From positions 1 to 64,000 of the IMG/VR virus record IMGVR_UViG_3300025840_000032: 64,000 nt of DNA; one strand, written 5' to 3'. A program made the translations under genes and the position numbers. Under the pieces are notes generated by a model that had not been told where the DNA came from, did no database searches, and saw only the letters and a program-made list of their open reading frames with translations. This document shows, piece by piece, positions 29,919 to 33,683 of the stretch. The DNA is from a virus. Numbering within the stretch: the first letter of the stretch is position 1; the number at the start of each line of letters is the position of its first letter.

Positions 29919-31445
29919 ATGTATAGAAATATTGTATATGATCAATTTAACCAACAAATTAGATTATACACTTGGGATGAAGTTGGTAACCGGATCGAAT
30001 TAGTTGAAAAATACAACCCATACCTTTATATTGAACCTCACAATAACCAACATGCAACAGCTGAATCAATTTATAAGACCCCATTACGTAAAATCACATT
30101 TCAACGTGATTCTGATCGACGCCAATTTATCAAAAATAATAGCATTAAGCGATTATTTGAAAATTTACCTATAAAACAACAATATCTTATCGATAAATTC
30201 TGGGAAGTTAATGAAACCCCAGAATTTACCCAATTTGATATCAAAATGTTACTACTTGATATCGAAACCTATTCACCAGCTACTGAGGGATTTCCGGATA
30301 TTGAAAAAGCAAACCATCCGATTAATGTTATTACCGTATATGATAATTTAACTGCTCAATTCTATACATGGGGCACGAAACCATATACGGGTAAATTAAA
30401 GAAAAATGTTGTGTATACATATTGTCAAACAGAACGACAATTGTTTGATCAATTTTTAAACTATCTCGAACAAGACTATCCAGATATTTTATCCGGTTGG
30501 AATAGTGAGTTTTTTGATATTCCATATATCATTAACCGTATGAAAAGGGTCATAGGGGAGAACGAAATGAAACGTTTATCTCCAGTAAGGCAAGTCTATT
30601 ATCGTAACATGATGGGAGCGTTTGGTGCTCAACAAACTCGATATTATATTGAAGGTATAGCACTTCTAGACTATCTCGATATTTACAAGAAATTTGCTCC
30701 AGAACGTGAGTCTTACAAACTTGATGTTATCGGTGAAATTGAACTTAATGAACGAAAAGTCGATTTCGGAGACATGGATTTAGCAACATTATCAGATGTT
30801 GATTGGAATAAATTCATTGATTACAACGTTCAAGACGTAAACCTATTGGCTAGACTTGATGAAAATTTACAATACTTGAGTTTAGTCAGGATGTTAGCAT
30901 ATGTGGGTTGTACTACTATTGAATCTGCAATGGGAGCATTATCTGTAATCAATGGTGCATTTGCAGTTCGAGCTAGACACAGAAATCAAATTATTCCGAC
31001 GTTTATTCGGGGCGAAGATACTGGTAAAAATCCAGGGGCATATGTAAGCGAACCTAAACAAGGTTTTCAAAATTATATCATGTCGTTTGATGCTAATAGT
31101 CTATATCCGAATGTTATGATATCTTTAAACATGTCACCTGAAACGAAAGTTGGTAAAATAATAGAAAAATCAGCTGATAATATTACGGTTGAAATGGTTT
31201 CTGGTAAGGTAAAAGATTATAAACTTCCAGTATTTGCAAAAATGGTTAAAGATTATAAGTTAACCGCATCAAAGGCTAACATTTTATTCCATCAGAACGA
31301 AAAAGGTGTGATACCGGAAATTGTTGATTACTATTACAATAAACGTAAAAAGGTAAAAGATGAATACGTTGAATTAAAGAAACAACATGCGGAGATTGTT
31401 AATCAAATAAAAATCCTCGAAAATCAATTAGAAGAACTTGGTTGA
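29919..31445 (+). CDS. 43: DNA polymerase, N-terminal part (gp43A)
   Basis: 508 residues of a family B polymerase: exonuclease motif I LLLDIETYSP (Asp114, Glu116), motif II LSGWNSEFFD (~residue 191), motif III DYNVQDVNLL (~residue 301), and polymerase motif A SFDANSLYPNVM (Asp391). It stops in the fingers region after LENQLEELG. The rest of the enzyme is encoded at 32298-33683, with a homing-endonuclease gene between. Together 508 + 381 = 889 residues, close to T4 gp43 (898). The two chains probably assemble. Confidence 0.92.
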   Translation: MYRNIVYDQFNQQIRLYTWDEVGNRIELVEKYNPYLYIEPHNNQHATAESIYKTPLRKITFQRDSDRRQFIKNNSIKRLFENLPIKQQYLIDKFWEVNETPEFTQFDIKMLLLDIETYSPATEGFPDIEKANHPINVITVYDNLTAQFYTWGTKPYTGKLKKNVVYTYCQTERQLFDQFLNYLEQDYPDILSGWNSEFFDIPYIINRMKRVIGENEMKRLSPVRQVYYRNMMGAFGAQQTRYYIEGIALLDYLDIYKKFAPERESYKLDVIGEIELNERKVDFGDMDLATLSDVDWNKFIDYNVQDVNLLARLDENLQYLSLVRMLAYVGCTTIESAMGALSVINGAFAVRARHRNQIIPTFIRGEDTGKNPGAYVSEPKQGFQNYIMSFDANSLYPNVMISLNMSPETKVGKIIEKSADNITVEMVSGKVKDYKLPVFAKMVKDYKLTASKANILFHQNEKGVIPEIVDYYYNKRKKVKDEYVELKKQHAEIVNQIKILENQLEELG

Positions 31446-32269
31446 TATTGTTTCTTTTCAAATTTCTGGATTGATATGATGTTACCTGTTGTTCGTGATT
31501 TAAATGGTTTATGTAATTGAACTTTACCGGCAATCCTATACATAATACCATCTCTTGCATACCCAGATAATATCATATCTTTTAAAAAATCTGATTTAAC
31601 AGTACCGTTTTCTGTATACGTTAGATAATACATTAAACGTTTTAATGAAGCGGTTTTACATTTTTCGGAGGTTATTTGTTTTTCTTTTTTGGTTCTTGCA
31701 TAATATTTTTTTTCCCACTTTAGCCTTCGTTTACGTTCAATTTGAGCTTTACGTTCATCCGACCAGTTTAATTTTGTAATTTTACCTTTATTTGTTCCTT
31801 CATACACGTTTTTCGGGTCCCTCCCTTTAAGGCTTTTCATACCATGTTGTTTTAATTCTTCTTTTGTTCTTGTACGAAAATATGTGGTAATATTTTTCCG
31901 GTGTTTTTCTCTACGTTCCGGTGTAAAAATAACACCGCTTGTTCCTTCCCCACCTTCTGTTAAATTATATAGAGGCCCTGTTTTTAAATCACACCGACCG
32001 ATTTCAGTTATTAACTTCATTTCCATATCCAACGCTTCTTTTTCATTATCGGTTATAAAAACAGTTTTTAAAACCGGATCTATACCGGTTTTAAGTAGCT
32101 TATTAATTTTTCTTCCCAATCTCGTGTTTTTGTTTTTATAGTGTTTATATTTCCGTTTTTGTTGAATATTACCTTTACCGACATATATAGGTAAATATTG
32201 ATATTCCTGGGATAATATGTTATAATTAGAAGGAACGGTAGGATCAAAATATATGTAGACTTCAAACAT
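31424..32269 (-). CDS. GIY-YIG homing endonuclease splitting gene 43
   Basis: 281 residues on the strand opposite to gene 43. VYIYFDPT...LPIYVGKGN is the GIY-YIG core (here VYI..YVG), with ALDMEMKLITEIGR carrying the catalytic Glu region. EGGEGTSGV, FTPERREKHRKN and repeated basic blocks form the DNA-binding part typical of phage homing nucleases. It fills the gap between the two polymerase parts and overlaps the end of the first by 22 nt. It probably cuts intact gene 43 of relatives and drives its own spread. Confidence 0.88.
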   Translation of the reverse strand: MFEVYIYFDPTVPSNYNILSQEYQYLPIYVGKGNIQQKRKYKHYKNKNTRLGRKINKLLKTGIDPVLKTVFITDNEKEALDMEMKLITEIGRCDLKTGPLYNLTEGGEGTSGVIFTPERREKHRKNITTYFRTRTKEELKQHGMKSLKGRDPKNVYEGTNKGKITKLNWSDERKAQIERKRRLKWEKKYYARTKKEKQITSEKCKTASLKRLMYYLTYTENGTVKSDFLKDMILSGYARDGIMYRIAGKVQLHKPFKSRTTGNIISIQKFEKKQYQPSSSN

Positions 32270-32297
32270 ATCAATATTTATACCAAACTAACGATAT

Positions 32298-33683
32298 ATG
32301 AACAAAAAACAATTATTAGATAAAATTGCAGGTCTTAAACGACAGCGTGATGATATTAATATCAAATTACAACAAGCTGGAACAAAACAGCTAACTATTA
32401 AAATTCTTATTAATTCCATTTATGGTTGAAAACGACCCTTTATATAGCAATATATAAAGAAAATCCCTTTAATTGCTGGAAACTCTTATAGTAAGACAAT
32501 CAGCAGCCAAGCTCAATTGAGAAGGTTCAACGACTATCCGAAAGGAGTACACTTAAGTAAGTGGAAATGGGGGAGATCTCTATGAGATCATGATATAGTC
32601 TCATCTTTACAGTGATGTAAAGCAGCGAAAGCGGGTGTTAATTAACGACTAACATCGAAGATATATGATTTTGGAAATAAAAACGCTCCAATTGGAGATG
32701 ATGATATTGCAGCATCTGTTACATTAACCGGGCAAGCTGTAATCAAACAAAGTAATAAAATTATCCGAGACTTCATTAAACTTAAGACCGGATTAACAGA
32801 TGAACAGATTGAAAAGAATGACCCAATTATATACAACGATACCGATTCAAGTTATGCATCAATTGAATTGCTTATAAAACATTTAGGGCTCAAGTTTACT
32901 AATGAAGATGGGGAAATTCATGATGATGTCTATAAAATTGAAACTGAATTGGTCGATTATTTAAATGATGAGATATATACATGGGGAACAAAAACCTTTA
33001 ATAGTAAAGATTGTAGATTTGTTTTTAAACGTGAAAGTATTGGACAAGTCGGGCTATTTTTACAGAAAAAACGGTATGTACTACATGTTCGAGATGATGA
33101 AGGTGCAAAAGTTAATAAGATAAAATACACTGGAGTTGAAGTAGTTAGAACAACACTACCGAGTTCATTAAAACCGTACATGAAAAACGTAATTGAGATT
33201 ATGTTATCGTCTCAAGATTACCAACAAACCAATGAAGCTCTTAAGGCTGTGTATGATAAGTTCAAACAATTGAGTATAAATGAAGTTGCTTCGGTAATGG
33301 GTATTAAAAACTATAGTAAATATGCAAGTTTGTGTACAGGGTTTAAGACATGTAAAGGTATGCCAGTGCATTGTAAAGCAGCTTATTACTATAACGAAAT
33401 ACTCAAAACATTAAATTTAACTGGTAAATATGAACCTATTGGATCTGGAGATAAAATCAGATACTTTTACGTTAACAAACCAAACAGGTATAACATTAAT
33501 GTGATTGGGTTTAAATATGATTGGCCTGTAGAATTTAACGAAATAGTTACACCAAATTACGATAAAATCTTCACAAAGTTGATTTACAAGCCAATTGAAC
33601 GGTTTTATAATTGTGTTAAGTGGAAATGTTATTTACCAAATCAAGCAGTAAAATGTGATTTATTTAGTTTATTGGCAGAATAG
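32298..33683 (+). CDS. 43: DNA polymerase, C-terminal part (gp43B), interrupted by a group I intron
   Basis: Exons 32298-32427 and 32668-33683 join in frame to 381 residues. Exon 1 (MNKKQLLDKIAGLKRQR...) ends in polymerase motif B KILINSIYG; the join reads NSIYG-Y-FGNKNAPIGDDD, as in other family B polymerases. Exon 2 carries motif C IIYNDTDSSY. Without splicing, translation stops one codon after the motif B glycine. The product should pair with gp43A. The ATG at 32298 follows the end of the endonuclease gene. Confidence 0.85.
32428..32667 (+). mobile_element. ORF-less group I intron in gene 43
   Basis: 240 nt. P1 forms between exon GGTT (32424-32427) and intron GACC (32434-32437) with a U-G pair at the 5' splice site. 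Core elements: P at 32471-32485 (AATTGCTGGAAAC), Q at 32498-32512 (AATCAGCAGCCAAGC), R at 32525-32536 (GTTCAACGACTA), S at 32591-32600 (TGATATAGTC). P4 pairs TGCTG/CAGCA, P7 pairs GACTA/TAGTC, P5 is CTTA/TAAG. The last base is G. No reading frame inside. Confidence 0.88.

Follow-up and report, generated by a model that had tools for sequence, protein, structure and literature searches.

The window, which is the whole 64,000-nt stretch of DNA analyzed, comes from a virus record of 64,456 bases. The locus considered here is that of its PolB-type DNA polymerase, gene 43, which is present as two genes and an intron with the following features:

29919..31445, + strand: gene 43A, N-terminal part of PolB with the exonuclease domain and motif A, 508 aa (Pfam, PHROG, relatives)
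31424..32269, - strand: free-standing GIY-YIG endonuclease gene between 43A and 43B, 281 aa (alignment with eight phage proteins)
32298..32427, + strand: 43B exon 1, 43 codons plus 1 nt, ending ...KILINSIYG-T (translation; homology to intact relatives)
32428-32667, + strand: group I intron (IA2-like), 240 nt, without an ORF and with a terminal G (RF00028, empty site, covariation)
32668..33683, + strand: 43B exon 2, with motif C, NDTDSSY (spliced frame matches intact relatives)

The 43A product was matched by Pfam models PF03104 and PF00136 and by PHROG 262, DNA polymerase (E 9.5e-121), and spliced 43B shows a 71-75% match to the intact polymerases of its close group of relatives. By these matches 43A and 43B are identified as the halves of a T4-type PolB, and they presumably assemble into one enzyme. 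The tail of 43A (31380-31445) and the head of 43B (32298-32385) encode lysine- and glutamine-rich stretches that exceed the linker of intact relatives; these stretches are probably helical, and might pair and so hold the split polymerase together.

The initial annotation had placed a 240-nt group I intron at 32428-32667, in motif B of the polymerase, and had called for a covariance-model search as a check. Such a search accepts the fold. An Rfam scan of all 64 kb returned RF00028 at 32417-32622 on the + strand (98 bits, E 4.3e-24, full model length) as the sole match above threshold, the cut-off being 50 bits. The model begins in the exon and ends at P9, and the intron continues to 32667 through two further hairpins. 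P1, P2-P9, the P7.1 and P7.2 hairpins and the two hairpins that follow P9 could all be placed on the sequence, the principal elements (all on the + strand) being:

32424-32437: P1, GGUU/G (32424-32428) with the internal guide CGACC (32433-32437) and an AAAA loop (sequence, fold)
32464-32469 with 32569-32574: P3 and P3' (RF00028, covariation)
32474-32479/32500-32505: P4 (RF00028, covariation)
32484-32488/32492-32496: P5 (RF00028, covariation)
32506-32507/32525-32526: P6 (RF00028, covariation)
32532-32536 (5' strand) and 32596-32600 (3' strand): P7 (RF00028, covariation)
32537-32546: P7.1 hairpin (placed on sequence)
32550-32563: P7.2 hairpin (placed on sequence)
32575-32580/32584-32589: P8 (RF00028, covariation)
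32605-32611/32616-32622: P9 (RF00028, covariation)
32625-32632: P9.1, GC-GAAA-GC (placed on sequence)
32634-32640/32650-32656: P9.2 (placed on sequence)

The minimum free energy fold was better than that of shuffled sequences (z = -2.95). Covariation was evaluated by counting the helices of the window, 34 core pairs, on an alignment of ten phage introns. Across the core P3-P9 pairs 99.1% of cells were standard, both sides were changed in 21 of the 34 pairs, and the covariation score was 0.594, compared to 0.209 for shuffles; sliding the partners by 1-3 columns gave no more than 0.110. The P7.1/P7.2 pattern, typical of the IA subgroups, is common to the aligned phage introns; it puts the present intron among the IA introns, in practice as IA2-like, an assignment drawn from this anatomy rather than from subgroup-specific models.

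The 5' splice site is marked in P1 by the U32427.G32434 wobble and the intron ends with G32667, both read from the sequence as had been described, and this end point allows a possible 4-bp P10 between A32429-32432 of the P1 loop and U32669-32672 of the 3' exon. Excision of exactly 32428-32667 restores NSIYG-Y-FGNKN across motif B, giving an uninterrupted NSIYGYFGNKN frame as in all 49 distinct intact relatives checked, in which the six residues on each side of the intron site are invariant; both intron boundaries are therefore firm. The translated product of spliced 43B is 381 aa and contains ...KILINSIYGYFGNKN.... The exon DNA around the site in one related record, L005 (AATTCCATTTATGGTTATTTTGG), is identical to the joined exons of the window.

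Relatives were collected by scanning viral contigs with the spliced 43B protein, which returned 80 loci. In nearly all of these 43A and 43B form one continuous gene; two of the 80 start inside 43B and are uninformative on this point. Among the loci covering the intron site, only L002 has an insertion there; the others present a precise empty site. L002 is a near-identical contig of the same phage (99.993% over 13,383 bases) and bears the same insertions, which are therefore not an error confined to one record. Taking the covariance-model match, the core covariation and the precise empty site together, we are highly confident that 32428-32667 is a self-splicing group I intron in polymerase motif B.

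The intron has no reading frame of its own, as first noted, the first stop in the 43B frame being a TGA exactly at the exon/intron junction. Because the unspliced junction reads TGA, production of 43B would depend on splicing, and the same codon would also keep ribosomes away from the ribozyme core. We infer from these features that the intron does splice. In the expected reaction, a guanosine bound in P7 would attack on the 3' side of U32427, the P1 partner of G32434; the released exon, aligned by P10, would then attack after G32667, and the joined exons would encode the 381-aa C-terminal part of the polymerase.

The gene between the polymerase halves overlaps the 43A stop by 22 nt. Residues Y5, Y29, G31, R39, E83 and N102 are kept in its product and in the eight phage relatives aligned with it (nine proteins); these include the GIY-YIG tyrosines and the expected active-site Arg, Glu and Asn, which we take to be the counterparts of those in I-TevI, and by this alignment the catalytic residues of the predicted enzyme are intact. 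The endonuclease alone matches no Pfam model, and single-sequence searches of it against PHROGs and the PDB gave nothing decisive. PF22945 (LEM-3_GIY-YIG) is matched by seven of the nine aligned proteins, that of the window not being among them, and the alignment profile matches GIY-YIG structures 9u75/9u7u. A search of viral contigs for relatives of the endonuclease returned the near-identical contig alone.

Intron and endonuclease gene were found together only in this phage and in L002; the 48 other related records searched yielded no RF00028 match above the cut-off and no relative of the endonuclease. The same intron was also sought at the same site elsewhere with a motif scan of viral contigs, which required a degenerate NSIYG-T exon and, within a set distance of it, the P7 consensus of group I introns, and again only the near-identical contig was found. 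Two matches of ~19 bits, below threshold, in L003 and L004, each upstream of the polymerase, were considered as other introns and rejected, being absent on rescan at E 0.01. Within the compared stretch, conservation of the intron site lies at the 97th percentile of 30-nt windows, and that of the endonuclease insertion point at the 9th percentile; the linker at the latter point is short and hypervariable in relatives. Third-base identity beside the intron site was 0.79 versus 0.59 overall for one relative, with no rise in the others, and thus showed no clear tract of co-conversion.

The endonuclease gene and the intron interrupt one gene within 1.25 kb, in agreement with the initial annotation, and the layout is that of an intron without an ORF adjoining a free-standing endonuclease gene, as in a collaborative homing pair. 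The intron contains no endonuclease, and its mobility must therefore come from elsewhere. ORF-less introns can be moved by free-standing endonucleases that target the intron insertion site, a process termed collaborative homing (PMC3984707, PMC2814812). By analogy, insertion of the GIY-YIG gene in the variable upstream linker would have divided the polymerase into 43A and 43B, the endonuclease would cleave polymerase genes lacking the intron, in motif B or close to it, and the ensuing repair would copy endonuclease gene, linker and intron together. We infer a cut site at or near motif B, and the conserved DNA agrees with such a target, being motif B and not the endonuclease's own insertion point. 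Joint mobility, drawn from the co-occurrence of the two elements within a single lineage, is plausible, and we lean slightly towards the step, tentatively proposed in the initial annotation, in which the endonuclease mobilizes the intron.

A less probable, though substantial, alternative is that of independent arrivals without cooperation, in which the endonuclease homes to its own insertion point in the linker and the intron entered through illegitimate recombination or reverse splicing. The endonuclease gene is not within the intron and is on the opposite strand, its relatives are free-standing genes of which several are next to capsid genes, and Aeromonas phage UP87 keeps an intron at the neighboring site while lacking an endonuclease gene at the 43A/43B split, all of which would fit separate arrivals. 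Such a history is harder to reconcile with the presence of both elements together in one lineage and their absence from all other relatives searched, and the hypervariable DNA at the endonuclease insertion point would be a poor homing target.

The arrangement of 43A, a GIY-YIG gene and a 43B gene with an ORF-less intron is already known from Aeromonas phage 25, the GenBank annotation of which gives 43A, a GIY-YIG endonuclease and a 43B split by a group IA2 intron. A review (PMC2988022) gives the name of the phage 25 endonuclease gene as seg43(25) and reports that the proteins made from 43A and 43B purify together and are active as a polymerase. As in the present phage, PolB is split in phage 25, and also in Aes120 and Aes508, with the break in the fingers region; these phages likewise have a GIY-YIG gene in the gap and an ORF-less phase-1 intron in the NSxYG region. 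Splice sites read from the sequences show that in phage 25, UP87, Aes120 and Aes508 the intron follows base 1 of the leucine codon of NSLYGALGN or of the corresponding motif, which is one codon (3 nt) further downstream than in the present phage. In Aeromonas phage UP87 (L109, 2501-4028) the 43B intron is present, there is no endonuclease gene at the split, and the exons are annotated as separate genes. In Aeromonas phage Aes508 (L111, 2501-5462) the annotation of one polymerase gene includes a GIY-YIG gene, a group I intron and, downstream, a split intein with a VSR-like nuclease gene between its halves.

The two cases also differ. The present phage belongs to a T4-like lineage separate from that of Aeromonas phage 25 and known here only from environmental contigs; its endonuclease gene is on the strand opposite to the polymerase, whereas that of phage 25 is co-oriented with it. 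Descent of the present intron from a common ancestor with the phage 25 intron at this locus, with a shift of one codon, would account for the same gene, the same motif, phase 1 in both and a GIY-YIG gene at the same split. We nevertheless regard it as very improbable: core identity between the two introns is 64%, compared to 70-76% with introns in several other phage records, the introns differ in P1 and in the guide sequence, BLASTP gives no significant similarity between the endonucleases, and the polymerases are far apart, with no phage record reaching 60%. In view of the differences in site, intron and endonuclease, the best reading is that this motif was reached separately in the two cases. 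We give an even chance to the fuller proposal of an independently evolved pair, in which a LEM-3-like GIY-YIG enzyme is partnered with an IA2-like intron distinct from the Aeromonas one, and which by convergence came to motif B at a distance of one codon from the Aeromonas site. The most doubtful reading, that the locus is in decay, with weak splicing, a 43B pseudogene replaced by another polymerase and an endonuclease also decaying, would suit an arrangement carried by one lineage only, but the reading frames of the two polymerase parts are intact, as are motifs A and C, all core helices and P1/P10, and the endonuclease catalytic residues are kept.

Novelty is limited by the Aeromonas precedent, and the interest lies in convergence on one motif. 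With this locus the rare layout that partly underpins the collaborative homing idea has a second example, apparently independent and from a distant phage lineage. If convergence is the correct reading, motif B of phage PolB repeatedly recruits intron-endonuclease pairs, and comparison of the present and Aeromonas cases would bear on whether endonucleases or introns choose motif B.

Among the introns compared, the closest core sequences are those of Vibrio phage D69 (76%) and Staphylococcus phage SAP6 (75%). Both are of the same ribozyme type with P7.1 and P7.2; unlike the present intron they lie outside gene 43 according to the record annotation, and in D69 a homing endonuclease gene is annotated directly upstream. 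The PolA intron of SPO1 bears its own HNH endonuclease. The introns of Bastille and Pf-WMP3 also carry their own HNH endonuclease, whereas the present intron is ORF-less. All three phages have, as here, a group I intron in a DNA polymerase gene (PMC2814812, PMC11878797, PMC3428280), the gene being a PolA in each and a PolB in the present phage. The psbA intron of cyanophage S-PM2 with F-CphI, a case of collaborative homing, also combines an ORF-less intron with a neighboring free-standing endonuclease (PMC6083498); the host gene and endonuclease family differ from the present case. Shewanella phage 1/4 (L101, 675-1392) has three tandem group I introns within 720 nt, flanked by a tape measure gene on one side and by a gene for an HNH endonuclease on the other.

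Across the whole window, a Shine-Dalgarno-like sequence precedes only 5 of the 66 larger ORFs. TAAATA was found at 19 of these 66 (1 expected), mostly 11-13 nt before the ATG, the endonuclease gene being one example (32270-32290, - strand). This pattern was not found in Aeromonas phage 25. It recurs before the ATG in relatives at 72-75% (16/60) and more weakly at 55% (7/56). TAAATA is similar to the T4 late promoter TATAAATA, and with promoters at this distance from the ATG the mRNAs would be leaderless.
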